Below are positions 23,817 through 50,357 of a DNA stretch of 64,000 nt, one piece after another. Each line of letters begins with the position of its first letter. The first letter of the stretch is position 1. The stretch covers positions 1 through 64,000 of the forward strand of contig CADBCZ010000005.1 of the NCBI GenBank assembly GCA_902793335.1, in the 5' to 3' direction. The position numbers were made by a program, and so were the translations under genes. Origin of the DNA: an uncultured Lachnospiraceae bacterium. GTDB taxonomy: Bacteria; Bacillota; Clostridia; Lachnospirales; Lachnospiraceae. The notes under the pieces were generated by a model. It worked only from the letters and a program-made list of their open reading frames with translations, was not told the origin of the DNA and made no database searches.

Positions 23817-23826
23817 GACAACCAAG

Positions 23827-24836: not shown

Positions 24837-24865
24837 GTGCCGTCTGACGCCCCGCCAGACAGCAC
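24837..24865 (-). other. GC-rich hairpin between cargo desulfurase and epsC
   Basis: GTGCTGTCTG and CAGACGGCAC (minus strand) form a 10-bp stem with one G-T pair and a 9-nt loop GCGGGGCGT. No T-run follows, so it is not a standard terminator. It may stabilise the upstream mRNA end or tune epsC expression within the operon. Confidence 0.45.
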
Positions 24866-24884
24866 TTATCTCACAAACTTATTA

Positions 24885-27666: not shown

Positions 27667-27738
27667 TGTTATTTTCCTCCTTATTAATATGTGCTAATGC
27701 ACTTATTTAACATTATTATCAATATATAGAAATATCTT

Positions 27739-29196
27739 TTACAACCACGCACCCTCATGCGAGAAAATGATGTCTTTAGCTCCATCAATTCCTCCCTTTA
27801 AATTATAGAGAGGACCTTTATATCCGGCTTCTCTAAGAGTCTTAATAGCTAAAATACTGCGTTTACCCTGTTTACATATAAATATAGTATCTATCTCCGG
27901 ATCAAGCTCTTTCTGTCTTCTGGCAAGCTGACCTATAGGTATAACAACTACATCAGGGAATCTGTGAATTGCCCGTTCATGTGGTTCCCTTATATCAACT
28001 ATAGTCATCTTGTCACCACGTTCGATCCTCTCGGCAAGCTCCTCAGGTTCTATACCTTCAATCGGTATCTCCTCTTCTTCCTCTCTAAGTCCGCAGAAAT
28101 CTTCGTAATCGTAATCCTCTACTTCAAATATTGATGCTTTCTTTCCACAAATCGGACAATTATCATTTTTATGAACCTTAAGTATATTTGAATGTAGATA
28201 CAGACTGTCTACAGTCAGCAGTTTTCCGCTAAGATTCTCACCTATACCGATAATGAGCTTTAATACCTCATTAGCCTGAATGCTTCCTATAATTCCGGGG
28301 AGCGGCGATATCGCACCACCCTCGGCACAAGTAGGTACAAGCCCTGTCGGTGGTGGTGAAGGGAACTGACATCTGTAGCATGGTCCATCATCAAGATTAA
28401 AAATACCAACCTGACCCTCGTACTGATAAATCGCACCAAATACGAGCGGAATTTTAGCCAATGCACAGGCATCGCCGATTACATAGCGCGCTTTGTAATT
28501 ATCGGTACAATCAACAACAACGTCATATCCTGCGATAACTTCCATAATATTTTCAGCATCCACCTTAATGTTATCCACTTCTATGGTTAGTTTCGGATTG
28601 ATTCCTTTAATGGTATCCTTTGCAGATGCAGTCTTAGGTCTTCCTATATCACGTTTTCCATGGATAACCTGACTTTGCAGATTACCCAGATTAACCTCAT
28701 CAAAATCGACTACCTTAATCTCACCTATTCCCGCTGCCGCAAGATATTGAATTACAGGTGAGCCCAATGCTCCCGCACCGATTATAACAACTCTCGCAGC
28801 CTTGATTCTTTTCTGCCCCTTTACACCTATTTCCCTGAGCATTAAATGTTTGTTAAACCGTTCAATCTCTGCGTCGTCAAATGAGACCTCTTTTCTTCTC
28901 TCATCTGATATAAGACTCTCTGTCGGTGCCCCTCCGGCAATAGACGGAATCAAGAGCAATTCTCTGTTAGCGGTAATATCCTCATCCCACTTATCTTCTG
29001 TTGTAAATTTTTCATCATCAACATATATCTGTATAAACTCCCGAAGTTTTCCGTCATCATTATATAAAGCTTCCCTACCATCAGGATATTCGTCTGTAAG
29101 AGTCTTAAGAAGGCTTCGTACAGTATTTCCTTCAAGCTCAACCTTATCATGTCGCCCGAAAAAACCTCTAAGAGTTGCTGAAATATAAATCTTCAT
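27739..29196 (-). CDS. Sulfur carrier-E1-rhodanese fusion protein
   Basis: About 485 residues from the ATG at 29196. Three parts: a MoaD/ThiS-like ubiquitin fold (about 1-88) ending in IPSIAGGAPTES; a MoeB/ThiF-type adenylating domain (about 105-355) with VVIIGAGALGSPVIQYLAA and zinc pairs CYRCQF and CPICGKK; and a rhodanese domain (about 385-485) with active-site Cys in TIFICKQGKRSI. E1 enzymes adenylate the C-terminal Gly of the carrier and rhodanese supplies persulfide, giving a protein thiocarboxylate. Here the Gly-Gly is internal, so the carrier must be cut free or work in cis. The JAMM peptidase gene ends 8 bp upstream. Confidence 0.88.
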   Translation of the reverse strand: MKIYISATLRGFFGRHDKVELEGNTVRSLLKTLTDEYPDGREALYNDDGKLREFIQIYVDDEKFTTEDKWDEDITANRELLLIPSIAGGAPTESLISDERRKEVSFDDAEIERFNKHLMLREIGVKGQKRIKAARVVIIGAGALGSPVIQYLAAAGIGEIKVVDFDEVNLGNLQSQVIHGKRDIGRPKTASAKDTIKGINPKLTIEVDNIKVDAENIMEVIAGYDVVVDCTDNYKARYVIGDACALAKIPLVFGAIYQYEGQVGIFNLDDGPCYRCQFPSPPPTGLVPTCAEGGAISPLPGIIGSIQANEVLKLIIGIGENLSGKLLTVDSLYLHSNILKVHKNDNCPICGKKASIFEVEDYDYEDFCGLREEEEEIPIEGIEPEELAERIERGDKMTIVDIREPHERAIHRFPDVVVIPIGQLARRQKELDPEIDTIFICKQGKRSILAIKTLREAGYKGPLYNLKGGIDGAKDIIFSHEGAWL

Positions 29197-29204
29197 ATCT
29201 CCAT

Positions 29205-29624
29205 TCACCTCCACTTTATGTAGTCAGTATCTGTAACATCCTTGTAATCTTCGTCAAAAGAATCCTTATAGTAGAGCCTTAATTCGTTGCACTTTTCATC
29301 ATCCACAGATGCTATAGCATAAATGCATCCCGGAATCATATAACGCTCATCCTCTTTTGACAAAACTGCCGGATAGTCTATGTGAGAATGGTAAAAGCCT
29401 ATTACATCCAATCCTCTCTTTTCACTTTCCTGCTCAATCCTATATAAAATGAGTGGATCAATTGTATAATGAATATTACTTTCGCTATCTGTATCAACAT
29501 TGTCAGCGCTTATAATCTCTGCTATTGTTTTTTCGTCTTTATGCCCTAACAAAATTCCACAGCACTCATTCGGATATTCATCTTCTGCATGACGTTTTAT
29601 CAAACCTTTAACCTTTCCATCCAT
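29205..29624 (-). CDS. JAMM/MPN+ metallopeptidase
   Basis: About 139 residues from the second ATG (GGGAG 9 nt upstream). The zinc motif is complete: Glu in YPNECCGILLGH, His-Ser-His in VIGFYHSHIDYPAVL, and Ser-x-x-Asp in LSKEDERY. Bacterial JAMM proteins next to ThiS-like carriers either trim residues after Gly-Gly (HcyD) or release cysteine from a carrier (Mec+). Adjacent to the fusion gene, it may cut after the internal Gly-Gly of the fusion. One of two JAMM genes in this operon. Confidence 0.85.
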   Translation of the reverse strand: MDGKVKGLIKRHAEDEYPNECCGILLGHKDEKTIAEIISADNVDTDSESNIHYTIDPLILYRIEQESEKRGLDVIGFYHSHIDYPAVLSKEDERYMIPGCIYAIASVDDEKCNELRLYYKDSFDEDYKDVTDTDYIKWR

Positions 29625-29669
29625 ACAGAGCATCTCCCATCTTAATAAAGCCTCCGGTCTTCCAGTCAG

Positions 29670-29807
29670 CTATTTCAACCGTATTTTTTCAGTTTTATCA
29701 ATCTGTATGACCTTACCATCCTGTATAACGATTGTGACTGTACCGTATTTCATATCCCTAACAAGTCTGTCAACCTGTTCAAGATATTCCTTCTCTTTAT
29801 CCTCCAC
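29670..29807 (-). CDS. DUF2292 (YezD-like) small protein
   Basis: 45 residues, GTG start, AGGTGA four nt before it; too short for usual ORF cut-offs. It reads VRDMKYGTVTIVIQDGKVIQ followed by IDKTEKIRLK, the DUF2292/YezD signature. The family is often found near sulfur or cysteine genes in Firmicutes; its role is unknown. It lies between the two JAMM genes and keeps the operon direction. Confidence 0.7.
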   Translation of the reverse strand: MEDKEKEYLEQVDRLVRDMKYGTVTIVIQDGKVIQIDKTEKIRLK

Positions 29808-29886
29808 CTCATCACCTCGCTATGCTAAAAAATCACACCATCAACTCACCTTACATTAATCATGCTAAAATCCTTGTTTATCCGTC

Positions 29887-30312
29887 TTACACATACTCAA
29901 TTTCATGTATGAAAACGTTCTTGTCTTTATCGACCTCAAATGCTTTAAATACCGGATTATCTTCCTCCTGTAAAGACAAAATCAGGTATTCAAATGTTGG
30001 ATCAAATGCAAGCCTCTTATCCTCCTCGGATGGTCTTGAAGGGCTTTCGGGATGTGAATGGAAATTTCCTATGAGTCCGACTCCGTTTGCTCTTGCATCC
30101 TTTAATGCGGCAAACTGTTCCTTCGGATCCATTGAAAAATGCTCATTGCTCTCATCTAGGTTTTTAAGAAGATATACTTTAGTGACCGTCTTGACGTTGC
30201 CTTCAACTGTCCCCGCAAGCAGACCACAGGCTTCATTGGGCAGTCCCTTTCTGCAGTGATCAAGTATCGTTTCATAATCTTCTTTTTTCATAACTATTTT
30301 GAAATCACTCAT
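29887..30312 (-). CDS. JAMM/MPN+ metallopeptidase (HcyD-like)
   Basis: About 141 residues from the ATG at 30312 (GAGGAA upstream; the frame extends to 30378 into the neighbour). Motif: Glu in LPNEACGLLAGT, His-Ser-His in GLIGNFHSHPESPS, Ser-x-x-Asp in RPSEEDKR. It sits directly after the E1-like gene and near the carrier ending Gly-Gly-Gly-Ala-Leu. By analogy with Wolinella HcyD, it would remove the last residues to expose the Gly terminus for activation. Cleavage is inferred. Confidence 0.86.
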   Translation of the reverse strand: MSDFKIVMKKEDYETILDHCRKGLPNEACGLLAGTVEGNVKTVTKVYLLKNLDESNEHFSMDPKEQFAALKDARANGVGLIGNFHSHPESPSRPSEEDKRLAFDPTFEYLILSLQEEDNPVFKAFEVDKDKNVFIHEIEYV

Positions 30313-30334
30313 ATCATTTCCTCTTGTATCTTTA

Positions 30335-31147
30335 TCACTCTCCGGGCTTCCACTCACAAACTGCCTGTTCATAATCAATCAGTTTTGTAATTGTTGGATT
30401 CTTTCCACATACCGCACAATTGCAGTTCTTTGGAAGTTTTACACTGTGGAAATCCATCTTAAGCGCATCGTATGTAAGAAGTTTTCCGGTTAGAAGCTCG
30501 CCCTGACCGATAATATACTTAACAGCCTCCATCGCCTGAAGACTTCCGATAACACCACCCATAGCACCGATAACACCGGCCTGCTTACAGGTAGGAACCG
30601 CATCCTTTGGTGGCGGATTCTTAAATACGCATCGATAACATGGTCCCTCTCCCGGAACATAAGTCATAAGCTGCCCCTTAAATCTGATAATACCGGCATG
30701 TGAAAACGGCTTACCTGCCATAACACATGCATCATTTATAAGGAACTTTGCAGGGAAATTATCCGTGCCATCAATTACAAAGTCATAATCCTTGATAATA
30801 TCCAATATGTTTGTTGAATTAATAAATGTATGATAAGTGTTAACTGTAACATCAGGATTTATGGCCTTCATCGTCTCTGCAGCCGACTCAACTTTCTTTT
30901 TGCCCACATCAGGTGTTGTATGTATAACCTGTCTCTGAAGATTTGAAAGGTCAACAACATCTGCATCGACAATACCGATAGTTCCGACTCCAGCTGCTGC
31001 AAGATAAAGTGCTGCCGGAGCACCAAGTCCGCCGGCGCCGATTATAAGAACTTTTGCATTCAATAATTTTTTCTGACCTTTAACGCCAACCTCTTTTAAT
31101 ATGATGTGGCGTGAATATCTCTCTAACTGTTCGTTTGAAAATGCCAT
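30335..31147 (-). CDS. ThiF/MoeB/HesA-family adenylyltransferase (HcyF-like)
   Basis: 270 residues. RYSRHIILKEVGVKGQKKLL at the N-terminus, nucleotide loop VLIIGAGGLGAPAALYLAAA, and zinc ligands in CYRCVF and CNCAVCGK. A Cys in AVPTCKQAGVIG may hold the thioester or persulfide. It activates the C-terminus of the ThiS-like carrier whose gene overlaps by one base. In this setting (metY, carrier, JAMM) the HcyF role of homocysteine synthesis is the best guess; thiamine or molybdopterin synthesis is less likely as thiG or moaE are absent. Confidence 0.88.
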   Translation of the reverse strand: MAFSNEQLERYSRHIILKEVGVKGQKKLLNAKVLIIGAGGLGAPAALYLAAAGVGTIGIVDADVVDLSNLQRQVIHTTPDVGKKKVESAAETMKAINPDVTVNTYHTFINSTNILDIIKDYDFVIDGTDNFPAKFLINDACVMAGKPFSHAGIIRFKGQLMTYVPGEGPCYRCVFKNPPPKDAVPTCKQAGVIGAMGGVIGSLQAMEAVKYIIGQGELLTGKLLTYDALKMDFHSVKLPKNCNCAVCGKNPTITKLIDYEQAVCEWKPGE

Positions 31148-31356
31148 TAAAGTGCTCCTCCTCCCATGAAATAGAGGAACTCTACAGCATCCCCTTCTTT
31201 GATAGCTGTTGCAGGAAATGCTTCCCTGTCGATAAACTCATCATTGATAGTAACTGTAACGTAATCAGGATTATCAATCTGTTCCTTCTCAATAAGCTTA
31301 TCAAGTGTAATTCCTTCTTCGTATTCTTTCTTTTCACCTGCGATTGTAAATGTCAT
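31147..31356 (-). CDS. ThiS/HcyS-like sulfur carrier with masked C-terminus
   Basis: 69 residues with a ubiquitin-like beta-grasp: MTFTIAGEKKEYEEGITLDK then the C-terminus GDAVEFLYFMGGGAL. Carriers act through a C-terminal Gly-Gly, but here Ala-Leu follow, so a peptidase must first trim them. That is the property of HcyS (Gly-Gly-Ala) and fits the JAMM genes in the operon. After thiocarboxylation it would give sulfur to MetY. Start and stop touch the neighbouring genes. Confidence 0.87.
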   Translation of the reverse strand: MTFTIAGEKKEYEEGITLDKLIEKEQIDNPDYVTVTINDEFIDREAFPATAIKEGDAVEFLYFMGGGAL

Positions 31357-31395
31357 ATCTATACCTACTTTCTTTTTATTTTTTAAGTTTTATTA

Positions 31396-31647
31396 TCAGT
31401 CTCCTACTTTCTTAACGATTAGTGTATATGTCCCGTCATCATTAGATGTGAGTTTCAACACCTCGTGTCCCTCTTCCTTAAGGCTTCTCGGAACATTTTG
31501 AACAGGCTCTCCGTCATTTAACTTAATTTCTAAAATGTCACCCTCATCAAGTTCATCCAAAGCAACTTTAGCCTTAACAAATGTCACAGGACAAACAACG
31601 TCTGTTATATCCACCTTGTCTGTTATTTCAAATTCAACTTCTGCCAT
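31396..31647 (-). CDS. TusA/SirA-like sulfurtransferase
   Basis: About 83 residues from the ATG at 31647 (AAGGAGG upstream). The TusA motif DVVCPVTFVKAKVALDEL holds the persulfide Cys; the family usually has CPxP, here CPVT. The fold continues with GDILEIKLNDGEPVQNVPRS. TusA-like proteins relay sulfur from desulfurases. It overlaps the metY end by 14 bp, so translation is coupled. Confidence 0.87.
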   Translation of the reverse strand: MAEVEFEITDKVDITDVVCPVTFVKAKVALDELDEGDILEIKLNDGEPVQNVPRSLKEEGHEVLKLTSNDDGTYTLIVKKVGD

Positions 31648-32896
31648 TTTCTTTATCCTCCTTGTTCTGCACTGCCTGTGCAAAATCCTTCTTAAGATCT
31701 TCTATATCCTCAATCCCAACGCTTATTCTTATAAGATCGTCATAAACACCCGATTTAAACTGTTCCTCTTTTGATAAATGAACGGCTATCGTAGATGCAG
31801 GATGGAGTACCAATGATTTTGTGTCTCCAATATTTGATAGAATATACGGAATCTTTAAATTATTCATTATATTAAATGCCCGTTCTTTGCTTCCGACTCT
31901 CACCGTGATTATCGCGCCATATTTGGCGCCGAACTGGCTCTTTGCAAGTTCATGTCCGGGATGTGATTCTAACCCAGGATAATTAACAATGAATTCGTCA
32001 TCTAAATCCACAAGAAACTTTGCAAGTTCTAATGCGTTCTGACATTGACGTTCAACTCTTAGCCCCAACGTTTCAAGTCCCAATATATTCAAAAATGCAT
32101 TCTGAGGCGAAAGACATCCACCTGTATTTCGAAACAGTCCGCTTCGTAGTTTTGCTATGTATGCAAACGGTCCGAACTTTTTATATGGAAGAAGACCGGG
32201 ATATCTTTCATCCCATTTAAACTTCCCTCCACTTATCAGTACTCCGCTTATCGCATCACTGTTTCCGTTAATGTACTTTGAAGACGAATGTATGACCACA
32301 TCTGCCCCCAGAGATAATGGGTTAATAAGCATCGGTGTTGTTATTGTGTTATCAATGATCAGAGGAAGCTTATGTGCATGTGCAATATCCGCAACAGCCT
32401 TTATATCCGTAATGTCTAACTTCGGATTACCCATAGTCTCTGCAAATATCACTCTTGTGTTTTCATTTATCAGCTTCTCATATTCTTCAGGAACATTATC
32501 AGCCACATATCTGGTAATTATTCCAAACGCCTCAAGCTCTTCAAACAGTTCAACAGTTCCACCATATAATCCTGCCGAAGCAACAACTTCATCTCCGCTT
32601 TGCAATATATTCATTAAAGCATTGAATAATGCCGACATTCCGGAAGAACATGCCACAGCCCCGATTCCTCCTTCCAGCAATGTCATTCTCTTCTCAAAAT
32701 CCTCAATGGTCGGATTATTGATTCTCGTATAGGAAAAACCAAGCGACTTGTTTGTAAATATATCTTCAAGCTCTTTGGCACTTTTATGTTTAAATGCACT
32801 GCTCTGATATATAGGCATATGTGTTGCTCCATGTGGATAATCAGCGGCTATTCCATGGAGCAAAGTGGTGTTAAAGCCACACTCAGACGTATTCAA
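31634..32896 (-). CDS. metY: O-acetylhomoserine sulfhydrylase (MetY)
   Basis: 420 residues, Cys/Met metabolism PLP family. PLP Lys in DVVIHSSSKYINGNSDAISG, and GFNTTLLHGIAADYPHGATH at the N-terminus. The length and YPGLESHPGHELAKSQF fit MetY (O-acetylhomoserine plus sulfide gives homocysteine) better than cystathionine synthase or lyase. Here the sulfur may come from the carrier thiocarboxylate encoded downstream. First gene of the operon; GGAGGTGGT precedes the ATG; promoter and two operators lie upstream. Confidence 0.9.
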   Translation of the reverse strand: MNTSECGFNTTLLHGIAADYPHGATHMPIYQSSAFKHKSAKELEDIFTNKSLGFSYTRINNPTIEDFEKRMTLLEGGIGAVACSSGMSALFNALMNILQSGDEVVASAGLYGGTVELFEELEAFGIITRYVADNVPEEYEKLINENTRVIFAETMGNPKLDITDIKAVADIAHAHKLPLIIDNTITTPMLINPLSLGADVVIHSSSKYINGNSDAISGVLISGGKFKWDERYPGLLPYKKFGPFAYIAKLRSGLFRNTGGCLSPQNAFLNILGLETLGLRVERQCQNALELAKFLVDLDDEFIVNYPGLESHPGHELAKSQFGAKYGAIITVRVGSKERAFNIMNNLKIPYILSNIGDTKSLVLHPASTIAVHLSKEEQFKSGVYDDLIRISVGIEDIEDLKKDFAQAVQNKEDKENGRS

Positions 32897-33121: not shown

Positions 33122-33835
33122 TTATATTATCAACATTATTGCCATTAGAATCAGCAGTACACATGTCATTTTTTCGAACTTTTCCTGGCTTATTACATTT
33201 ACAATTTGCTTCCCTATTATTGTTGCAATAATAACAGGAATCACACCTATCAGACCTATTATCAAATTCTCTTTCGTATATAGACCTTTATAATATTGTA
33301 TCACCATAATATATAATGACTGTAACAAGAACAGAAAACTGTTACTGGCTCTGAATATCTCCTTTTCTTTATAGCGCATGCTCATATATAAGACCATAAC
33401 TATACCACCACACAAAAACAGATAGTTTACAATCCCCGAAAGTATTAACACTATTACGGAAGCTGTTTTATTAAGATTAATTTCCTTTGAACATAATAAT
33501 TTGATCATTGTGATAATCAAAATGATTCCGCCAAGAATTCTTATTAAAACCTCTTCCACATTGACGAGACTGTTAAAAAACATTCCCAATATCATACCTA
33601 TAAAAACAAGCGCAAATATTGGGAGTAATTCTTTTACCTTTAATACTTTTCGATGCTGAACAATTATAGTACTGTTAAATGCAATACTAATAATATTGAC
33701 TACCGCTTTTGCATTAGCCAGACCCAAAACCACGGCACACAAAGGAACCGAGATTGCAGCTCCTGCAAATCCTGCAACTGATGAAACTAGAAATGAAAAG
33801 AATAATATAATTTCTGTTTCTACAACTTCAAGCAT
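33122..33835 (-). CDS. TauE/SafE-family sulfite/sulfonate permease
   Basis: About 237 residues from the ATG at 33835 (the upstream TTG start overlaps the previous gene). Seven to eight hydrophobic segments and the repeated half-structure with VSSVAGFAGAAISVPLCAVV typify TauE/SafE. The family exports sulfite or sulfoacetate or takes up sulfur compounds. As the last gene of a sulfonate-transport operon it may expel excess sulfite or supplement uptake. Confidence 0.82.
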   Translation of the reverse strand: MLEVVETEIILFFSFLVSSVAGFAGAAISVPLCAVVLGLANAKAVVNIISIAFNSTIIVQHRKVLKVKELLPIFALVFIGMILGMFFNSLVNVEEVLIRILGGIILIITMIKLLCSKEINLNKTASVIVLILSGIVNYLFLCGGIVMVLYMSMRYKEKEIFRASNSFLFLLQSLYIMVIQYYKGLYTKENLIIGLIGVIPVIIATIIGKQIVNVISQEKFEKMTCVLLILMAIMLII

Positions 33836-33853
33836 TATTACACATCCTATCAA

Positions 33854-35119
33854 TCACCACTTCTCAATTCTTGCAAGATCTGTATTAGGATGATTACCAC
33901 ATCTACGATAATCATCAATATACACAGCAAGTCCGTATTTCTTTCTGACTTCCGAAAGACCAAGAGCCAATCTTACAAAGTAGTCTAATGTAGGCGTATT
34001 TTGTTTCGCAAAATATGACTTTGGAAGTGTATTCCACACACATTCCGAAAAACTCACACCATGAGATGCTATCTCATCAGCCTCTGAAAGTACCGCCTTA
34101 AGTGCTGCGTCCTCATCACTAAATCCATTAGGCTGAGCATTTTCAACACCTCCGACAAGACCGCAATGTACCTGTCCTTTTCCGAACACATCAACTGCCT
34201 CATATAACCTATGTTTCCACTCGTCATATCCGACAAGCCTTGCTTTTCCGGGGCATACCCACTTAAAAAGATCCTTATTCAAAACTTCAAGATCTGTAAC
34301 ATAACCGGTCATACCCGTTTCATCTCTAAGTCTTTCCAATTGGCGTTTGCTGAATCCACTTGCCACCAGCTTTGTAGGGAACTTTGATGAATGAATTGCT
34401 TTTCCCGCTGCCTGAAGCGTTTTTATATACAGTTCCACTTCATCATCAAAAATCTCTCTGCCTGAAAGAGTAGATCCCGAAGTCATATGAAACGAGGCGA
34501 AACGTCCTTTTTGTTTTAATGCCTCAGCAACCGTTTCCGTTACATCCTGAAAATATTTCTCATCACGGACTTCTCCGTCATCAAGCCTGTGACCTGCAAA
34601 AAGTGCGCAAAATTTACAACCTTCTCCCGGTGTATCCCAGAAATGACATTTCACCCCCGGAGTTATTGTTATTCGCTGAGGACGCGCGGTTGCAATCTCC
34701 CACATTGGTGTACCGTTAGAGGTAACTTTATCATAAAAATCAGGTTTTTCCCAAAACTCAACTTCCTCAAGTTTTTCGCCTTGATCAGTAATGTAGAGCT
34801 TACCGTTATCCGCATCAATTATATATGGTTCTCTATTCTTGTTCTGTGTTGTAAGAGCCGGACCACCACAGATTGTTGTACCATCCCGAAGTGTAAGCCC
34901 TATCGGAAACACAAACTTTTTCCCATCGGCAGTCATATAATCACTAGGCTCTACATGATGCTTATTTGGATCAACCAACTTTGCCGCCTCATCAGAATAA
35001 ACAAAGCCACGCCTATCCACATCGATTTTTAATACGGTGAATCTGTTAATATCACCATTATACCTATCCAAAACCTGTTCAAGCGAAGGTTCTTTTTCTC
35101 TCCAATTATTTTCACTCAT
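33854..35119 (-). CDS. Radical SAM protein B, unusual CX9CX2C cluster
   Basis: 421 residues. The Fe-S motif is CHFWDTPGEGCKFC, i.e. Cys-x9-Cys-x2-Cys in place of the usual CX3CX2C; the residues after it (FASFHMTSGSTLSG) resemble the SAM-binding GGE-type strand. An N-terminal beta-rich domain (about 1-130; VLKIDVDRRGFVYSDEAAKL) precedes it and the C-terminus holds VYIDDYRRCGNHPNTDLAR with a further Cys. It is related along its length to the protein at 38738-39994. The reaction is unknown. Placed in a sulfonate-type transporter operon, C-S bond cleavage is an appealing inference only. Confidence 0.8.
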   Translation of the reverse strand: MSENNWREKEPSLEQVLDRYNGDINRFTVLKIDVDRRGFVYSDEAAKLVDPNKHHVEPSDYMTADGKKFVFPIGLTLRDGTTICGGPALTTQNKNREPYIIDADNGKLYITDQGEKLEEVEFWEKPDFYDKVTSNGTPMWEIATARPQRITITPGVKCHFWDTPGEGCKFCALFAGHRLDDGEVRDEKYFQDVTETVAEALKQKGRFASFHMTSGSTLSGREIFDDEVELYIKTLQAAGKAIHSSKFPTKLVASGFSKRQLERLRDETGMTGYVTDLEVLNKDLFKWVCPGKARLVGYDEWKHRLYEAVDVFGKGQVHCGLVGGVENAQPNGFSDEDAALKAVLSEADEIASHGVSFSECVWNTLPKSYFAKQNTPTLDYFVRLALGLSEVRKKYGLAVYIDDYRRCGNHPNTDLARIEKW

Positions 35120-35142
35120 AACGTTTACTTCCTTATTAAAGA

Positions 35143-35916
35143 TTAGATAATATATTCGATATTAGCTATATTCTCCCCAAAGAACTCCTTATATATCTTT
35201 TTCCTGTAATAATCAAAATCATCACTAGTTCTTGATCGTGGTCTGGAAATATCAATCTTAAATTCTTTTTGTATAATTCCCGGTTTTGGCGACATAACCA
35301 CAACTTTATGACCAAGATATATAGCTTCATCGATATCGTGAGTAACAATTATCATGGTTGTCTTTTCTTTTTCCCATATATTTAACATCTCATTTTGAAG
35401 ATTAATCTTAGTAAATGCATCAAGAGCTCCGAAAGGTTCATCCAAAAGAAGTATTTTAGGTTTATTGATGAGCGTTCTTGCAATGCTAACTCTCTGTTTC
35501 ATACCACCCGACAATTGATCGGGAAGAGCATTTTCAAATCCTTTAAGTCCAACCAGTTCAATGTAATGATTGACAAGTTCCTTCTTTTCTTTCTTTGGAA
35601 TATCTTTTCTTGCAATACCAAATTCAATATTTTTATAAACACTCTTCCATGGAAACAGTCGTGCTTCCTGAAAAATCATTCCAACCTCAGTGCTGTCTAT
35701 CTCATAAGGTTTCTTTTCGTTTATTGTTATATCTCCCTCTGTAACATCCTCAAGTCCTATCAACAATTTTAGCAATGTACTCTTGCCACATCCGGAAGAC
35801 CCTACAACACTTACGATTTCTCCATCTTTAATGTTAAGATTAATGTCCTTTAATACCTCTATACCATCCTTATTTATAGAAAACACTTTTCTAACATTTT
35901 TTACTTCAAGTGCCAT
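35143..35916 (-). CDS. ABC transporter ATPase (SsuB/TauB type)
   Basis: About 257 residues. Walker A VVGSSGCGKSTLLKLL, Q-loop in VGMIFQEARLFPW, signature LSGGMKQRVSIARTL, Walker B ILLLDEPFGALD, H-loop IIVTHDIDEA. This is the ATPase of the nitrate/sulfonate/taurine family. It powers the permease encoded just upstream (11-bp overlap). GAGGTGG ribosome binding site. Confidence 0.92.
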   Translation of the reverse strand: MALEVKNVRKVFSINKDGIEVLKDINLNIKDGEIVSVVGSSGCGKSTLLKLLIGLEDVTEGDITINEKKPYEIDSTEVGMIFQEARLFPWKSVYKNIEFGIARKDIPKKEKKELVNHYIELVGLKGFENALPDQLSGGMKQRVSIARTLINKPKILLLDEPFGALDAFTKINLQNEMLNIWEKEKTTMIIVTHDIDEAIYLGHKVVVMSPKPGIIQKEFKIDISRPRSRTSDDFDYYRKKIYKEFFGENIANIEYII

Positions 35917-36712
35917 TCTTACCACCTCGACTCAATTCCCAAAAAATAATCTTATCCTGTAAAAACTGCATAAAAAGATCAATAAGCAATCCGATAATAC
36001 CAATTGCAATAATTCCTATAAACAACAATGCAGGTTTTGACATCTCCCTTGCATACATTATCAGATATCCTACACCAACCGATGAAGCGATCATTTCCGC
36101 AGCCACCACACAAGACCAAGCCGTACTGATTCCAAGTCTGAGTCCGGTGAATATTGATGGAAGTGCTGATGGTAGAATAATATCTTTTAATATAATAAAC
36201 TTTCCTTTTCCAAGAACCTTGGCCACTTCAATAAGCTTAGAATCCGCCTGTTTAATCCCGGTTATCGTGTTAAGAAGACACGGCCAGAAAGCTCCTATGA
36301 AGATCAATGCAATTTTAGAATCTTCACCTATTCCCAATGCTAATATAAACAAGGGAATGCAGGCTATTGGTGGAATCGGTCGCAAAACACCTATAAGCAG
36401 AATAAATGCTTGATCCAACTTGGAAAACAATCCCACCAAAATTCCCAGCACCACACCTGCCAAAGCTCCAATTACATATCCGTAGATGACTCTTACAAAG
36501 CTTACTGTAATATGTTTTAATAAACTTCCATCCTCTATTACTTTTGAAAACTGAAGATTAATCTTATGAGGTGTAGGAATAATCGATTGATTAAACCAGT
36601 TATTATCGCTTCCAACTGCCCATAACGCAATAATTAGTACAGGTAAGATAATTGAAATAATAAATGCTGTTATTCTATTGTCCGGTATTCTTTTACTATT
36701 AGACGATTTCAT
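35906..36712 (-). CDS. ABC transporter permease (SsuC/TauC type)
   Basis: 268 residues, six membrane segments of the BPD-transport-1 fold. The EAA-like loop for ATPase contact is seen around AKVLGKGKFIILKDIILPSA. FTGLRLGISTAWSCVVAAEM is typical for sulfonate/nitrate importers. Overlaps the next gene by 11 bp and the previous one by 4 bp (ATGA). Confidence 0.92.
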   Translation of the reverse strand: MKSSNSKRIPDNRITAFIISIILPVLIIALWAVGSDNNWFNQSIIPTPHKINLQFSKVIEDGSLLKHITVSFVRVIYGYVIGALAGVVLGILVGLFSKLDQAFILLIGVLRPIPPIACIPLFILALGIGEDSKIALIFIGAFWPCLLNTITGIKQADSKLIEVAKVLGKGKFIILKDIILPSALPSIFTGLRLGISTAWSCVVAAEMIASSVGVGYLIMYAREMSKPALLFIGIIAIGIIGLLIDLFMQFLQDKIIFWELSRGGKNGT

Positions 36713-37191
36713 TCTGTCTCCTCTGCATACTTATCCAAATGAACATACAATGGATATTTCTCCTTATGCTGTGCCTTTTGTACCGCAAAAGTCTGCTCAT
36801 ATATTTCAAGTGGTTCAATATAATATACAGCCACAAGATCGTTATCCTTTTCCCGCTCTTCATAAAGCCTGTAATATTTTTCAAACTCTTTGCCAAATAC
36901 TCTGCTTCTTATTGTTTTTCCCTTGATCACAAAACTTCTGTTATCAGCGCTTATAATTGTGACAGATATATTTTTATCAAACCATATGCTGTTTACCATA
37001 TTAATATTTGTCTGAGACTTTTCAAAAAACTCCAGATATATAAGCTGCCCATTCTCATCTACAGTCACCGACTGCTTTACAGCAGAATGAACCTCGCCCT
37101 GTGGAGAAATGCTCGCAATAACTTTAATAGTATCTTCTTTGGAAATTAAATCTTTTAATTCTTTACTAATTTCTGCTGACACAACATTCAC
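36709..37191 (-). CDS. PPOX-fold (pyridoxamine-phosphate-oxidase-like) protein 2
   Basis: 160 residues of the split beta-barrel, flavin-binding-like superfamily. IKVIASISPQGEVHSAVKQS and INMVNSIWFDKNISVTIISA are family-like strands. It is clearly related to the protein at 38267-38725 (shared VNSIWFDK/VNAIWFDK, EPLEIYEQTFAVQKAQHKE against EPVEVRNESFDYRKKKQEE). Such proteins bind FMN or heme; cofactor and reaction here are unknown. It may serve the radical SAM enzymes as electron donor. Four-base overlap with the permease gene. Confidence 0.75.
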   Translation of the reverse strand: MNVVSAEISKELKDLISKEDTIKVIASISPQGEVHSAVKQSVTVDENGQLIYLEFFEKSQTNINMVNSIWFDKNISVTIISADNRSFVIKGKTIRSRVFGKEFEKYYRLYEEREKDNDLVAVYYIEPLEIYEQTFAVQKAQHKEKYPLYVHLDKYAEETE

Positions 37192-37203
37192 CTCTGTCTG
37201 TTT

Positions 37204-38247
37204 TTATTTCTTCACTTCGTTGATAAATGTAGAATTTGTATGTTTCTCAATAAGATCTTCAACTTCCTCATCAAGAATTTCCTGATCAAGTAAGAACTTT
37301 TGAGTTTCTGTAATAGAAGTAATATCTTCATCCGTAAGATCAACCACAACTTCAACTTTATCCAGCAACTGTGATACTATCTCCTCATCCCAATCAAGCT
37401 GTTTTGAAAAAAATGCAACAGCTTCTTCTTTGTTATTATTAATATAGTCAACTGTCTTATACAATGTCTCAACTAAAGCCTCGGTAATCTCAGGATTATC
37501 GTTAATAAACTCATTCTTCGCAACAAAATATGTTGTGAGTGGATGACCTGTACCATCACCTATCTGTTTTACTGTTCCTTCTTCAAGGGCCTGGGCAAGA
37601 GAACTCCATGGGCCAAAATACGCATCAAGTTCACCGCTTCCAATTGCAGTCAACGCTTCACCGTAAGCTGCATCGCCAAGATTTGTAAATGAGACCTCTG
37701 AAACATCAATTCCGTTATCATCCAAAATTCCGATAAATGATTTATGAGAAAATGTTCCTATTCCCACACCGATGTTTTTCCCTTTAAGGTCTGCTGGTGA
37801 GTTGATGTCCGAATCAGCAGCAACAACTGTAATATATGATTTTTCCTGTTTCATTGTGGTTGCAAGAATACTTGTATCAACGCCATTAGCATTTCCTGTA
37901 ATGAACGGCTGATCACCAAGTGAAAGCTCTATGTCAAGTTCTCCTGCTGTTATTGCCTCATTTGCTACAGGACCATTTTCAAATGGAATCAGTTCAATGT
38001 TAACATCATCACCCAGTTTACCAATAACTTCATCCCAGATACCAAACTCCTGCGCAGCCTGGAATAATGTACCCTGAATATTGTATGCCCAATATGACAC
38101 TCTTACATTTTTTCCTTCAGAAGCATGCTCAGTAGCTGCACTTGACTTGCTGACAGCTGTTGCATCCTCACTACCGCATCCTGTTACTGCTCCTACAGTT
38201 AATGTTGCTATTACCAATAAAGCCAGTACTTTCTTAAATTTATTCAT
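37204..38247 (-). CDS. Substrate-binding lipoprotein (SsuA/TauA type)
   Basis: About 347 residues from the ATG at 38247 (GAGGAG upstream; the longer frame overlaps the previous gene). Lipobox in VGAVTGCGSED. The fold is the two-lobed NMT1/SsuA type: VSYWAYNIQGTLFQAAQEFG, ELDIELSLGDQPFITGNANG, KGKNIGVGIGTFSHKSFIG. The family binds sulfonates, nitrate or thiamine precursors; the ligand is not readable, though the sulfur context favours an organosulfur compound. Confidence 0.9.
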   Translation of the reverse strand: MNKFKKVLALLVIATLTVGAVTGCGSEDATAVSKSSAATEHASEGKNVRVSYWAYNIQGTLFQAAQEFGIWDEVIGKLGDDVNIELIPFENGPVANEAITAGELDIELSLGDQPFITGNANGVDTSILATTMKQEKSYITVVAADSDINSPADLKGKNIGVGIGTFSHKSFIGILDDNGIDVSEVSFTNLGDAAYGEALTAIGSGELDAYFGPWSSLAQALEEGTVKQIGDGTGHPLTTYFVAKNEFINDNPEITEALVETLYKTVDYINNNKEEAVAFFSKQLDWDEEIVSQLLDKVEVVVDLTDEDITSITETQKFLLDQEILDEEVEDLIEKHTNSTFINEVKK

Positions 38248-38266
38248 ATTTTTTCTCCTCTTTTCA

Positions 38267-38725
38267 TTATTTGACTGCCCTATCCAAATGTTTAAGGAAT
38301 GGATAATCCTCTTCCTGTTTCTTCTTTCGGTAATCAAAACTTTCATTTCTTACCTCAACAGGCTCAATCACCCATATGGCATTCAGATCAAAGTCTCTGT
38401 CTTTCTTTAATTTTTTGTATACCTCTTCAAATTCTTTTCCCTGTGTTATGCTCTCTTTGGCTTTTGCTATGATTTCATAACTTCTTTTATCTTCAGTCAA
38501 AACATTGACTGTTATATACTTATCAAACCAAATAGCATTCACTAACGCTTCATTTATTCTTGATGATTCTAAAATGTCATTAAATACAATATCCCCATCC
38601 TCATTTACATGAAGCGATCCTTTATAAACGGTATGCGGAACTCCTGATTTAAGTACCGCTGTCACAGATTTAAGACTTGTAGGGTTATTAATATCTTCTT
38701 TTAATACGTTGTCGATAATACTCAT
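38267..38725 (-). CDS. PPOX-fold (pyridoxamine-phosphate-oxidase-like) protein 1
   Basis: 152 residues, paralogue of the protein at 36709-37191. LKSVTAVLKSGVPHTVYKGS and INEALVNAIWFDKYITVNVL are the split-barrel strands, with a conserved C-terminal region HLDRAVK/HLDKYAEE. It comes 12 bp after radical SAM gene A and 19 bp before the binding-protein gene. Each radical SAM gene in the operon thus has one PPOX partner in the same unit. Function unknown; flavin or heme binding would be expected. Confidence 0.75.
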   Translation of the reverse strand: MSIIDNVLKEDINNPTSLKSVTAVLKSGVPHTVYKGSLHVNEDGDIVFNDILESSRINEALVNAIWFDKYITVNVLTEDKRSYEIIAKAKESITQGKEFEEVYKKLKKDRDFDLNAIWVIEPVEVRNESFDYRKKKQEEDYPFLKHLDRAVK

Positions 38726-38737
38726 TTCCTACTCCTC

Positions 38738-39994
38738 CTATACTCTCAAAAGGTCTAATCCCGGGTGCATTCCACATCTTCTGTAATCGTCAGTGTATCT
38801 GCCTACGTTATATTTGTGATGAAGTTCATCAAACTTGTTATATACACTTACGAAGTACTCTAGTGATGGGTTATACTGATTCTGAAATACCGAACCCGGA
38901 GCCGGTCTCCAAACGTTTGCCGCAAGAGAAATGCCATTCTCGACAATTGTTTCAGCCTCTTCTGTGATTACCTTAAATGCTTCCTCCTCAGAAACAAAGC
39001 CATTCGGTGAAGCAAGCTCCACACCTAGAACCATACCTGATGAAACATTTCCCTTTCCAAAATAATCAATTGAAGCAACCAGTCTTCTCTTCCATTCATC
39101 ATATCCGATATAGTGATTCTTTCCTTCACATATCCACGCAAACTTCTCTCTGTCCAACACTTCAATATCAGTTGTATAATGCATTAGTTTTGTTTCATTT
39201 ACCAGGCGTTCTAACTGTCTTTCATCAAAAGCCGAGCTTATTAACTGACTCGGATATCTCTTTCCATCCTCAAACAAATCACCTATTGCTTTTATCAATT
39301 CAATATAAGCATCTAACTCATCATCAAGCACGTTATCACCTGAAAGAATTGAACCTCCTGTGAACATAAAACCTGAAAATCTGCCCTCTTGTTTTAATGC
39401 TTCTTTGACCGCTTCAACAATGTATTTCACGTTGTATCGCTCTTCTTTTAGCTTCTGTTTTAGATAATTAGGAGTAAGTGGACAATATTTACATCCACCA
39501 CCATTTCTGTCCCAGAAGTGACAGTATTGATTAAGAACGACATCAATACGCTGTGGACGTGACGAAATATATTTTGTTAACGGTTCTCCGTTTGAAGCTA
39601 GCTTATTGTAATAATCCGGCTTAACAAAATACGAAACCTCTGCAAGTTTTCTTCCTTCGTCTGTAATCCAAATACGATCATCAATTACATCAACCACATA
39701 AGGGTCTCTTTTTTGATTTTCAAAATCATAATCATATGAAACTATAAGGTACGAGCCATCCTTTAATATAAGTCCTTCCGGGAAATATCTCTGCTCGATT
39801 CTAAATCCCTGTTGTCCGTCACTTTGAACCTGATGAATATTCGGATCAATTTTACTTTGTGCAGCTTCAGTATATATGACCCCTCTACGTTGTACATCAA
39901 TCTTCAATATCAATAGTTTCGGAAAACTCGGAAATTTGGCTGCAACTTCATCAAGACTTAACTCTTTCTTTCTCCATTCCAAATCTCTTGCCAT
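38738..39994 (-). CDS. Radical SAM protein A, unusual CX9CX2C cluster
   Basis: 418 residues. Cluster motif CHFWDRNGGGCKYC (Cys-x9-Cys-x2-Cys), followed by FSGFMFTGGSILSGDN. N-terminal domain LILKIDVQRRGVIYTEAAQS and C-terminal YTDDYRRCGMHPGLDLLRV match those of radical SAM B, so the two are paralogues. It lies 23 bp after metK with no terminator between, so the SAM synthetase and the SAM-dependent enzymes are probably one transcript. The substrate is unknown. Confidence 0.8.
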   Translation of the reverse strand: MARDLEWRKKELSLDEVAAKFPSFPKLLILKIDVQRRGVIYTEAAQSKIDPNIHQVQSDGQQGFRIEQRYFPEGLILKDGSYLIVSYDYDFENQKRDPYVVDVIDDRIWITDEGRKLAEVSYFVKPDYYNKLASNGEPLTKYISSRPQRIDVVLNQYCHFWDRNGGGCKYCPLTPNYLKQKLKEERYNVKYIVEAVKEALKQEGRFSGFMFTGGSILSGDNVLDDELDAYIELIKAIGDLFEDGKRYPSQLISSAFDERQLERLVNETKLMHYTTDIEVLDREKFAWICEGKNHYIGYDEWKRRLVASIDYFGKGNVSSGMVLGVELASPNGFVSEEEAFKVITEEAETIVENGISLAANVWRPAPGSVFQNQYNPSLEYFVSVYNKFDELHHKYNVGRYTDDYRRCGMHPGLDLLRV

Positions 39995-40017
39995 ACATTT
40001 TTCCTCAACAATCTATC

Positions 40018-41199
40018 TTATAAATATTTTTTAATCTCATCTACTTTATCAAGTTGCTCCCAAGGAAGACTAATATCAGTTCTTCCAAAATGACCATAAG
40101 CCGCCGTCTGCTTATATATAGGTCTGCGCAGATCAAGAGCATCTATAATTGCTGCAGGTCTTAAGTCAAATACCTTATTTATTATGTCTACGATTTTTTC
40201 GTCATCTATCTTACCTGTTCCAAAAGTCTCAACAGCAACAGAAACCGGTTTTGCAACTCCGATAGCATATGCAAATTCCACCTCAAGTCGGCTAGCAACG
40301 CCTGCTGCAACTAAATTCTTTGCAACCCATCTTGCTGCATATGCTGCAGAACGATCAACCTTTGTAGGATCCTTGCCTGAAAACGCTCCACCGCCATGAC
40401 GTCCTGTTCCACCGTATGTATCTACGATAATCTTTCTTCCTGTAAGCCCTGCATCTCCCTGCGGTCCACCGATAACAAATCTTCCTGTCGGATTAACATA
40501 GTAGATAGTGTCATCATCCAACAATTCATTCGGAATTACAGGTTTTATTACCTTTTCAATAATATCTTTACGAATCTGTTCTAAACCGACTTCTTCAGCA
40601 TGCTGTGTTGAGATTACGATTGTATGAATTCTCTTTACAGTCTGTCCGTCTTCTGCAAACTCTACTGTAACCTGACTCTTTCCATCAGGTCTTAAATAAT
40701 CAAGCGTTCCGTCTTTTCTTACCTTTGCAAGCTGTCTTGTAAGTCTGTGTGCAAATGAAATTGCAGGTGGAAGATATTCAGGTGTCTCATCCGTTGCATA
40801 ACCAAATATTATTCCCTGATCACCTGCTCCCGTTCCGAAATCCTCTGTTACACCTTCCTGCTTTGACTCGTATGCCTTATCGACACCAAGTGCAATATCT
40901 GCCGACTGCTCATCAATAGATGTCAGCACTGCGATTGAATCTGCATTATAACCATCAACGTTATTCACATATCCTATCTCTTTAATAGTATCTCTTGCTA
41001 CTTTTGCAATATCAACATACGCATTTGTTGATATCTCTCCAACGATAAGTGCAAGACCTGTTGCAACAGTTGTTTCTGCCGCTACTCTTGAATCAGGATC
41101 CTGTGCAATCAATGCATCTAAAATTGCATCTGATATCTGATCCGCTATTTTATCCGGATGTCCTTCTGTTACTGATTCCGATGTAAATAATTTTCCCAT
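40018..41199 (-). CDS. metK: S-adenosylmethionine synthetase
   Basis: 393 residues, full length. Motifs: [38 protein letters not shown] and the P-loop-like [20 protein letters not shown]. It makes SAM from methionine and ATP. It heads the radical SAM/transporter operon, linking methionine sulfur to radical chemistry. No SAM riboswitch was seen in the leader although many Clostridial metK genes have one. Confidence 0.95.
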
Positions 41200-41638: not shown

Positions 41639-42715
41639 TTATATACAATAATCACTCCACACACTTTCTGATACATGTTGGCAGCTTTCCCTGATAATTA
41701 ACTTACTTTCCACTTCCATCCTGACAACACTGCTATGTCCGCCATATATTCTATCAAGCAACAGTTTTACAGCCATTCGTCCCATCTCATCTCTTGGGAT
41801 TCTGACAGTTGTAAGCATAGGCTTCGAAAACTGAGCCTCCTCTATATCATCACTTGAAATGATTGACGGACGCGGATAATGCTTCTTAAATTTTGCCAAA
41901 CATTTCAACATTCCTATCGCAGTTATATCATTAGCACAATATATGCCTGTAGGACATTCATCCGACTGCAAAAACTTAAGCATACTTTCATAACCTGAGG
42001 ATTCAGTATGCCGTGTCGCGATAACGTACTGTGGCATAAGTTCCATACCATAATGATTTAAAGTTTCCAAATAACCTGAATACCTGACTTCATTTTTACA
42101 TTCACCGACATAGCCTATCTTCTTATGTCCGAGAGAATATAAATATTCCACTGCCATTGATGCTATCTTTTTACCATCACAAAGAACTTCGTCTACCGGA
42201 TATTCAGCAGAATTTCGGTTTACCAGAACAACATTACCAAAAACCTTTGAAAACTGTTCTATAGCTTTCTTATTACAGCGTCCAAGTATTATCAACCCAT
42301 CGGATTTTCCTCCGGTCTCCTCAAACATATCCGTAATAATGCGATTGATATTTTCTACATCGCATCTGGTATCATTTGAGAATAAAGATCTGTACCACAG
42401 ATTAGACAGTATAGACCCACTCTTATGTATCTCTGATTCTATTACGCGTAATATTTCTGAAAAAAACGGATCTGTCTGATTTGTATCTGCTCTTGTCATA
42501 AGAACATTTATATATATAACTTTGCTTTCCGTTCCACTTTTCCCAAGTTTCAAATTTCTGGCTGCCATATTGGGAGTATAATTAAGTTCTATGGCCGCTT
42601 TCCATACACGGTCACGTAGTCCCTGTTTAGAGCATCTGTAATCAGGATTGTTAAGTATACGCGAAACCGTCGCAGGCGAAACTCCGACCATAGTTGCAAT
42701 CTTCTTAATAGACAT
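41639..42715 (-). CDS. LacI-family transcriptional regulator
   Basis: 358 residues. HTH at the N-terminus (SIKKIATMVGVSPATVSRIL) and hinge (RDRVWKAAIELNYTPNMAAR). The periplasmic-binding-like effector domain follows, with VEYLYSLGHKKIGYVGE and PSIISSDDIEEAQFSKP. The ligand is not known; family members bind sugars or nucleosides. The gene is 8 bp after hemL at the end of the siroheme operon and next to operator-like sites before metK. Whether it controls sulfur, siroheme or a carbon source is open. Confidence 0.88.
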   Translation of the reverse strand: MSIKKIATMVGVSPATVSRILNNPDYRCSKQGLRDRVWKAAIELNYTPNMAARNLKLGKSGTESKVIYINVLMTRADTNQTDPFFSEILRVIESEIHKSGSILSNLWYRSLFSNDTRCDVENINRIITDMFEETGGKSDGLIILGRCNKKAIEQFSKVFGNVVLVNRNSAEYPVDEVLCDGKKIASMAVEYLYSLGHKKIGYVGECKNEVRYSGYLETLNHYGMELMPQYVIATRHTESSGYESMLKFLQSDECPTGIYCANDITAIGMLKCLAKFKKHYPRPSIISSDDIEEAQFSKPMLTTVRIPRDEMGRMAVKLLLDRIYGGHSSVVRMEVESKLIIRESCQHVSESVWSDYCI

Positions 42716-49451: not shown

Positions 49452-50315
49452 TTATCCCTCGTAGGCTTTTAACAGTACTTCTTTTAATTTCTCTATACCA
49501 ACACGATCAATCGTAAACTTAAATCTCTCACCGGCATTTGCGTTATCGTCAAAGAAGTTAATTGCCGCATCCGTAACCCTAAACAACTGTTCCTCATCTG
49601 TAATAATCGGTAAAAGCTCTTGTCCGCTACTTATAGAATTACCAAATGTTCCTCCAAACGATACCCAGTATGCAGGCTGCGCATCCCACGCATCTGTAGG
49701 ACATGACTTAACACATCTTCCACAATAATTACACTTGTCAAAATCAACATCAACTTTTCCATCCTTAATAGTAATCGCACCTTCTCGACAGACTTTCTGA
49801 CATAATCCACAATTAATACAATCCTCACTCTTATATTTCATCAATAAAGCGCCTTTAATTCCTACATCATTTTCCTCAGCCTTAAGACAGTTGTTCTGAC
49901 AACCTGTCACACCAAACTTAAATTTATGTGGAAGCTCTCTTCCAAAATATCTCTCATTTAATTTCAACGCGATATCATATGTGTCAATATTTCCACTCGG
50001 ACAGATTTCACTGCCCTGACAAGCTGTAACCGTACGTACTCTTGGACCACACACACCCGGTTTACATCCACCCTGTGCAAGAGAATCTTTTACCTCATCA
50101 ATATCGTTCAATTTTATAAACGGTATCTCTACTCCTTGTCTTGATGTTAGATGTACATGTCCATCACCATATTTTTCCGCAACCTCTGCAATCTTCTTAA
50201 GATTCTCCGCTGTCAGCGTTCCACCTACAACAGCCAAGCGAAGCGAAAAATTATCTTTCTGCTTTTGTTTCATAAATCCGCCTTTTTTTAATGTTGAATA
50301 ATCCACTTCTGCCAT
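49452..50315 (-). CDS. Siroheme/4Fe-4S sulfite (nitrite) reductase
   Basis: About 287 residues from the ATG at 50315 (AAGGAG 9 nt upstream). Siroheme-cluster cysteines in TACQGSEICPSGNIDTY and GCQNNCLKAEENDVGIKG (CX5C...CX3C); substrate-binding basic residues in HLTSRQGVEIPFI. A two-cluster ferredoxin insert is present: CINCGLCQKVCREGAI and CNYCGRCVKSCPTDAW. This is the compact, AsrC/Fsr-like type. It would reduce sulfite to sulfide by six electrons with ferredoxin. Heading the siroheme operon, it explains why those genes are here. Nitrite remains possible as substrate. Confidence 0.87.
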   Translation of the reverse strand: MAEVDYSTLKKGGFMKQKQKDNFSLRLAVVGGTLTAENLKKIAEVAEKYGDGHVHLTSRQGVEIPFIKLNDIDEVKDSLAQGGCKPGVCGPRVRTVTACQGSEICPSGNIDTYDIALKLNERYFGRELPHKFKFGVTGCQNNCLKAEENDVGIKGALLMKYKSEDCINCGLCQKVCREGAITIKDGKVDVDFDKCNYCGRCVKSCPTDAWDAQPAYWVSFGGTFGNSISSGQELLPIITDEEQLFRVTDAAINFFDDNANAGERFKFTIDRVGIEKLKEVLLKAYEG

Positions 50316-50357
50316 ATCAGTATCTCCTTTTTCCGAATCCATTTTTCATATATTCCT

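Follow-up and report, generated by a model that had tools for sequence, protein, structure and literature searches.

A conserved radical SAM/PPOX operon with an SsuABC-type importer as a probable anaerobic sulfonate-sulfur assimilation system of a Lachnospiraceae bacterium

Strict anaerobes can live on sulfonates as a sulfur source, as is known from older work on the physiology of Clostridium, and to our knowledge few enzymes that release sulfonate sulfur without oxygen have been described. A study of IsrBHDK, the isethionate reductase of Rhodobacter capsulatus (PMC11423573), names Xsc, IslAB and Isr as such enzymes and also lists SsuED and TauD. The same study states that SsuD requires O2, that in IslA a radical next to the sulfonate can drive sulfite out, and that the absence of Tpa and Xsc did not wholly abolish taurine use in R. 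capsulatus. Here we describe an operon in a 64,000-nucleotide stretch of an uncultured Lachnospiraceae bacterium (contig CADBCZ010000005.1; the whole stretch is called the window) that encodes an S-adenosylmethionine (SAM) synthetase, two paralogous radical SAM proteins, two PPOX-family proteins, an SsuABC-type ATP-binding cassette (ABC) transporter and a TauE/SafE-family protein. We propose, at a probability of about 0.68, that this operon is an anaerobic sulfonate-sulfur assimilation system in which the radical SAM/PPOX pairs serve as two-component desulfonating enzymes. A narrower version, which we rate slightly above an even chance, is that the radical SAM protein with its split-barrel flavoprotein partner would itself be the desulfonase, a widespread oxygen-free counterpart of SsuD that uses SAM stoichiometrically and comes in paralogous pairs for individual sulfonates.

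The proposed system resembles IsrBHDK (PMC11423573) in the anaerobic assimilation of sulfonate sulfur by way of sulfite, in an SsuABC-type importer and in a radical SAM gene. It differs in that the closest relative of IsrB is BciD and its partners are NifHDK-like proteins, whereas the genome of the window gave no match to the nitrogenase-like family PF00148 (IsrDK), and in that the window radical SAM proteins, unlike IsrB, have a PPOX partner and a CX9CX2C motif. IslAB (PMC6453916, PMC6386719) also breaks a sulfonate C-S bond to sulfite by oxygen-free radical chemistry with a radical SAM protein involved. There, however, a glycyl radical enzyme catalyses the reaction and the radical SAM protein activates it, and no glycyl radical enzyme of the IslA type was recognised in the window operon (no genome-wide search for one was made). 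SsuD/SsuE with SsuABC shares the type of importer, the presumed sulfite product and the assimilatory role, but SsuD is O2-dependent. The absence of an SsuD/TauD oxygenase, which a first-pass annotation of the window had noticed locally, extended to the whole genome, where neither PF00296 (luciferase-like monooxygenase) nor PF02668 (TauD) found a match; this supported its idea of an oxygen-free replacement of SsuD.

As far as the literature searched reaches, none of Isr, Xsc, IslAB, SsuED and TauD shares the architecture of the window operon. A full-text search whose scope left aside most subscription papers and all of bioRxiv found no paper on a radical SAM/PPOX desulfonating system, and a full-text search for "MSMEG_0568" with "radical SAM" found no paper either. 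The first-pass statement that no such enzyme had been described holds for this architecture in the literature searched, but not for the role, since anaerobic desulfonation by Xsc, IslAB and Isr is known (PMC11423573). The physiological job is known already; the enzyme system, if confirmed, would be new.

The nine genes follow one another in the same direction on the minus strand between 41199 and 33122, a tight unit as first annotated. Family scans of the window proteins recognised metK, two NF045502 radical SAM proteins, an SsuA-like lipoprotein, a permease, an ATPase and TauE. In order of transcription, the genes are:

40018..41199, minus strand: metK, S-adenosylmethionine synthetase (TIGR01034 581.9 bits, cut-off 309.4)
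38738..39994, minus strand: rSAM1, CX9CX2C radical SAM protein of the NF045502 superfamily (NF045502 173.4 bits, cut-off 125)
38267..38725, minus strand: PPOX1, split-barrel partner of rSAM1
37204..38247, minus strand: SsuA-type substrate-binding lipoprotein (TIGR01728 129.9 bits, below the cut-off of 163.5; lipobox by eye)
36709..37191, minus strand: PPOX2, predicted split-barrel-family protein, partner of rSAM2 in relatives (34% identity to PPOX1, same family)
35906..36712, minus strand: ABC permease, SsuC/TauC-like (PF00528)
35143..35916, minus strand: ABC ATPase, SsuB/TauB-like (PF00005)
33854..35119, minus strand: rSAM2, CX9CX2C radical SAM protein
33122..33853, minus strand: TauE/SafE-family membrane protein (PF01925 72.9 bits, cut-off 32.6)

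A search profile made from an alignment of seven of the radical SAM proteins found 229 relatives in genome contigs, and the best 80 of them were taken, giving 79 distinct loci (handles beginning with L; genomes with G). Judging by the record titles, we place these loci in about seven phyla, presumably Bacillota, Spirochaetota, Synergistota, Chlorobiota, Pseudomonadota, Campylobacterota and a Desulfobacterota-type group. The titles include rumen and cecum bacteria, Paenibacillus and Chlorobiaceae, and the named isolates Ruminiclostridium cellobioparum and Clostridium luticellarii carry the radical SAM and PPOX unit. Within the family of the window, 14 of 200 genomes had an NF045502 protein above the cut-off, at least six of them of the window's kind. 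Two plasmid relatives were found, both Streptomyces records at 26-27% identity.

The cluster cysteines C157, C167 and C170 were invariant across 97 aligned rows, which represent 95 distinct genes since two rows are duplicates (L009 = L082, L010 = L050). This confirmed the three-cysteine motif read initially as CX9CX2C, the first spacing being CX9 in 51 rows, CX8 in 45 and CX10 in one. The C-terminal motif D.[YF][RK].C..H was present in all 97 rows, and a slight variant of the pattern matched none of 12 outgroup radical SAM proteins; further invariant residues include R145, C288, K291, C406, H409 and R416, and R148 is conserved as well. Both window proteins passed the NF045502 ("variant_rSAM") cut-off of 125 bits with 172.5-182.7 bits and missed that of TIGR04043 (MSMEG_0568, 303.7 bits) with 61.4 and 21.5 bits, although both models describe the same superfamily. 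With its D-x-Y-R-x-C-x-x-H tail, the family separated as a clade from 12 other NF045502 proteins (FastTree support 0.97). A search of PDB sequences with the profile gave no relevant match; the predicted model of rSAM2 has the barrel of radical SAM enzymes, with lipoyl synthase as the nearest structure among the matches listed. By cysteine motif and, for rSAM2, the modelled barrel, rSAM1 and rSAM2 are assigned to the radical SAM superfamily. In L013, L015, L016 and L017 the NF045502 domain is the C-terminal part of proteins of about 770 residues whose N-terminal half looked ATP-grasp-like by eye.

Family scans of PPOX1 and PPOX2 alone gave no convincing match. The profile of their family matched HupZ and a PNPOx-like chain, and 15 of 85 members matched PF01243; matches to PF03971 (3/85) and PF01885 (1/85) were taken as chance. 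AlphaFold predicts a split barrel for PPOX1, near HupZ and the FMN (flavin mononucleotide)-binding protein of Desulfovibrio among the matches listed, and several of the nearest structures bind FMN, F420 or heme according to their titles. The model and the profile together assign PPOX1 to the split-barrel fold of the PPOX superfamily.

Neighbourhoods of the 79 loci, the survey that had been suggested for the CX9CX2C family, were counted by tblastn with the window proteins and their neighbours. The radical SAM gene was found in all 79 loci and a PPOX gene in 75. Two of those without one are short contigs (L044, L117), L104 ends 160 bases past the radical SAM gene, and L114 is uncut, with a second locus on the same contig, L119, that carries a PPOX gene. 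Among 90 full-length radical SAM genes, 61 had a same-strand PPOX gene within 60 bases and 76 within 700, and 14 had none within that distance. The alignments excluded 2 of 92 radical SAM proteins outside 395-440 residues and 1 of 84 PPOX proteins outside 144-175. Tree distances of the two partners correlated with r = 0.62, a value that includes the effect of species relatedness, against a maximum of 0.12 in 500 permutations. In this comparison the pairing of rSAM2 with PPOX2 of the window was set by hand, as the two genes are not adjacent there. In L047-L051 rSAM2 is adjacent to PPOX2, and in these loci and the window each PPOX protein clusters with its own class, PPOX1 or PPOX2, from other species, and no partner has its nearest neighbours in the other paralogue class; the two pairs of L093 are too similar to be separated into classes. 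Since the classes stay separate across species, rSAM2 and PPOX2 of the window probably belong together despite the intervening transporter genes, and the sequence comparison supports treating them as one pair. Hence, proximity and co-variation both backed the view in the first-pass annotation that each radical SAM protein has a PPOX-fold companion with which it forms a functional unit.

The importer recurs with the pair. A permease was found in 66 of the 79 loci, an ATPase in 66 and a binding protein in 63, and an SsuA-type binding protein together with a permease within 6.5 kb in 59. The solved chains nearest to the window binding protein are the sulfonate-binding 2x26 and 3uif (E 7e-15), whereas a thiamine-type protein matched at E 4.5e-4, and uptake of a thiamine precursor was rejected for that reason. 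All 68 binding proteins scanned (67 of 80 matches plus that of the window, chosen by similarity) matched SsuA_fam at E 1e-10 or better. The window lipoprotein also matched PF09084, the broad NMT1/THI5-like superfamily, and is classed as SsuA-like since its 129.9 bits fall short of the SsuA_fam cut-off of 163.5.

A control set of 20 neighbourhoods of other, weakly matching radical SAM genes from the family of the window was compared with the 52 loci of at least 14 kb, leaving aside the 27 shorter ones. Binding protein, permease and ATPase together occurred in 40 of 52 loci and 1 of 20 controls, the ATPase alone in 44 and 7, and metK in 25 and 0 (31 of the 79 loci overall). A further sulfur gene of our panel was present in 26 of 52 loci against 3 of 20 controls (one-sided p = 0.006), and in 34 of all 79; these p values are optimistic, since all controls belong to a single family and the queries were taken from the radical SAM loci themselves. 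SsuD-like genes were counted in 12 loci, MetY in 10, ThiF in 9, JAMM in 9 and sulfite reductase in 8. Of 8 SsuD-like proteins scanned among the 12, five passed the SsuD equivalog cut-off (L080, L098, L101, L110, L112) and three of Paenibacillus type failed it (L059, L064, L070). The three PLP (pyridoxal phosphate) enzymes in Deltaproteobacteria-titled loci, all scanned, had the CuyA cysteate sulfo-lyase model as best match, at 430.5-443.4 bits just below the cut-off of 450. In four Campylobacteraceae loci SsuD lies beside the PPOX and radical SAM genes (L101, L103, L110, L112; the three tested were over the cut-off), an arrangement that suggests one enzyme for oxic and one for anoxic conditions, both acting on the same import. 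In Clostridium luticellarii (L089), S-box riboswitches precede the MetY and MetH-like (by eye) genes that flank the pair. Sulfur-free neighbourhoods or a sulfur-free ligand had been named at the outset as evidence that would speak against a sulfur role; the 59 loci with binding protein and permease, the 34 with a further sulfur gene and the sulfonate-binding relatives pointed, by sequence, the other way. Taken together, the comparisons show a conserved import-plus-redox unit linked with sulfur assimilation.

The whole genome bears on the class of substrate. No match to ATP sulfurylase (Sat) was found, and the two PF01507 matches, considered as CysH/CysD candidates, were read by eye as a DndC-like protein and TilS. 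Only one PF01077 match was found genome-wide, about 8 kb upstream of the operon and adjoined by siroheme-type genes (labels by eye):

49452..50342, minus strand: siroheme sulfite/nitrite reductase with 4Fe-4S domain (PF01077 101.8 bits, PF03460 77.4 bits)

Since this sole reductase stands without detected sulfate activation, its sulfite would have to be imported or derived from organosulfonates, which argues for sulfonates that yield sulfite rather than for sulfate esters or thioethers. Uptake of sulfate esters as the main role was rejected because no gene to activate the freed sulfate was found. Hence, the release of sulfur from organosulfur compounds proposed in the first-pass annotation kept its sulfur context and oxygen-free route, and was narrowed to sulfonates and sulfite.

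Genome searches covered 50 of the 79 loci, that is 49 genomes with the radical SAM family (G122 and G002 of the family sample probably recur among them as G227 and G205). PF01077, which spans sulfite and nitrite reductases alike, matched in 48 of 49, whereas in the family of the window 97 of 200 genomes had a match, a baseline of one family set against several phyla with genome completeness not stated. Within that family the match was present in 6 of 6 positive genomes (G000, G002, G014, G015, G083, G122, aligned as this family) against 91 of 194 others (one-sided p = 0.012), where eight further NF045502-positive genomes were counted as other kinds, G029 among them without inspection of its sequence. 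Neither Sat nor a CysD-like protein (threshold 96 bits, so that the 37-bit fragment of G233 was scored absent) was found in 18 of the 49 genomes, 17 of which have the reductase.

Based on these results, we propose the following route. The SsuABC-type transporter would bring in one or more organosulfonates. SAM would be reductively cleaved at the [4Fe-4S] cluster bound by the CX9CX2C motif, and the resulting 5'-deoxyadenosyl radical would abstract a hydrogen of the sulfonate close to the C-S bond, whose breakage would release the sulfur at the level of sulfite. The PPOX-fold partner, probably with a reduced flavin, would give or accept the electron that closes the cycle. The radical SAM protein is favoured as the C-S cleaver because it and PPOX are the only enzymes nearly always present, and because L081 and L088 have three radical SAM genes alongside three binding proteins. 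One SAM would be spent per turnover, which would explain why metK is placed with the pair. A gene for 5'-methylthioadenosine/adenosylhomocysteine nucleosidase lies directly downstream of the radical SAM gene in 2 of 79 loci (L046, L071), consistent with the clearing of 5'-deoxyadenosine, and with metK this neighbour suggests SAM as a consumed co-substrate. The siroheme reductase would then reduce sulfite to sulfide, which MetY and the downstream sulfur-carrier genes would fix, and TauE may vent a surplus.

Several observations weigh against this proposal. The survey rests on the best 80 of 229 relatives. Twenty of the 79 loci lack an SsuA-type binding protein with permease within 6.5 kb, some at contig ends, and 45 lack a further panel sulfur gene. 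Most single panel genes showed no significant enrichment relative to the 20 controls (MetY 9/52 versus 0/20, p = 0.043; SsuD 8/52 versus 0/20, p = 0.063; sulfite reductase 6/52 versus 1/20, p = 0.37; ThiF and ThiS, p = 0.37; SAT 1 versus 1, p = 0.93). No transporter part reaches its SsuABC cut-off, and the permease and the ATPase are best matched by Sao models (permease: SaoP 164.9, SsuC 153.1, TauC 146.6 bits; ATPase: SaoA 256.5, nitrate 227.3, taurine 216.6, sulfonate 200.0 bits; each score lower than the cut-off of its model), the Sao models being missed at 53.3, 164.9 and 256.5 bits against cut-offs of 300, 295 and 360 for SaoX, SaoP and SaoA. Six of nine loci with two radical SAM genes have a single binding protein. 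In Paenibacillus/Paenibacillaceae (L059, L061, L063, L064, L070, L072) the pair is instead accompanied by a maltose-type ABC transporter (by eye) and, except in L063, by an SsuD-like monooxygenase; a sulfo-sugar would be an obvious guess for a substrate there. Sat or a CysD-like protein is present in 31 of the 49 genomes, and G237 has no PF01077 match. S-boxes occurred in 3 of the 15 loci (of 79) searched with Rfam, none directly ahead of a radical SAM operon, and between 20000 and 52000 of the window no riboswitch reached the gathering threshold ahead of metK, with weak sub-threshold matches near its leader. The limits given above on the tree correlation, the control p values and the reductase counts act in the same direction.

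Binding proteins of the NMT1/THI5-like/SsuA superfamily are broad in ligand. The pair might cleave thioethers, sulfones or sulfoxides to a thiol or sulfide without sulfite, and the MetY-like neighbours in 10 of 79 loci could use methanethiol or sulfide directly. We consider this unlikely, though the strongest of the alternatives, since a thiol product leaves the PF01077 reductase in 48 of 49 genomes unexplained and since sulfonate enzymes, SsuD and CuyA-like, are among the neighbours. Slightly less probable is that the radical SAM protein activates, or makes a cofactor for, a desulfonating enzyme encoded elsewhere, in the manner of IslB with IslA or NifB with nitrogenase. The published anaerobic systems do use the radical SAM protein as a helper (IslB) or in an unclear way (IsrB; PMC11423573). 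No third widely conserved partner was seen in the loci, however, where the commonest cluster beyond the core and metK occurs in 11 of 79, and no nitrogenase-like protein was found in the genome of the window; the matching sets of three radical SAM and three binding-protein genes in L081 and L088 fit substrate-specific enzymes, yet the single binding protein of most two-gene loci does not follow that pattern.

We give little credence to a sulfur-free ligand (a thiamine or flavin precursor, nitrate or an aromatic) or an organometallic one, with the sulfur genes adjacent by accident. The breadth of PF09084 and the sub-cut-off preference for SaoP and SaoA, a name that we take to point to an organometallic ligand, would fit it; the nearest solved sulfonate binders, the uniform SsuA_fam matches and the recurrence of SsuD, CuyA-like and MetY neighbours in unrelated groups oppose it. 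Least probable, and hardly to be expected, is modification or repair of sulfonated metabolites with the sulfur retained: radical SAM chemistry is diverse enough, but the joint operon with importer and metK, the flanking reductase and MetY-like gene and the undetected sulfate activation fit release of sulfur.

Other genes near the operon were also recorded. The TauE/SafE protein is a possible exporter of sulfite or organosulfur; found in 3 of 79 loci (L044, L045, L050), it was dropped as a core component and taken as accessory. A LacI-family regulator directly upstream of metK (41639-42715), with relatives in 7 of 79 loci, may control the operon. Downstream, a sulfur-trafficking island occupies 21142-32896 of the minus strand and begins with a gene whose product likely consumes the sulfide:

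31634..32896, minus strand: MetY-like homocysteine synthase (TIGR01326 434.7 bits, below the cut-off of 495.1)

The island also encodes TusA, a ThiF protein, two JAMM proteins, a ThiF-rhodanese fusion, a Type 2A encapsulin shell (PF19307, 316.7 bits), a cysteine desulfurase that carries a long N-terminal extension and resembles encapsulated cargo, and a hexapeptide serine acetyltransferase-like protein, followed by thioredoxin, Rrf2, NifS and NifU by eye. Encapsulin genes lie near the radical SAM gene in L046, L080 and L098; with 3 of 79 loci, a link to sulfonates is suggestive only. We take the "major membrane protein I" of R. capsulatus to be an encapsulin. According to PMC11423573, the isethionate-induced locus contains this protein, a cysteine desulfurase and a serine acetyltransferase, as the window does. 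In the Chlorobiaceae loci L085, L095 and L120 the pair is flanked by NifHDK-like genes, other NF045502 proteins and benzoyl-CoA-reductase-like activase/double-cubane proteins, with a nitroreductase in L085 and L095. A thiamine-diphosphate enzyme lies directly upstream of the radical SAM gene in the alphaproteobacterial L104 and L114 (L114:8187-9878, NF006052 795 bits).

The unit is small, a radical SAM and a PPOX protein, and is present in named isolates, so the question is directly testable. If the proposal is true, the radical SAM repertoire would gain a reaction. An additional desulfonation route driven by SAM, present by record title in rumen and cecum bacteria, Paenibacillus, Chlorobiaceae and others, would help close the gap left by Xsc, IslAB and Isr, to which the residual taurine use of R. 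capsulatus also points. It would also link dietary and host sulfonates to the formation of sulfide.

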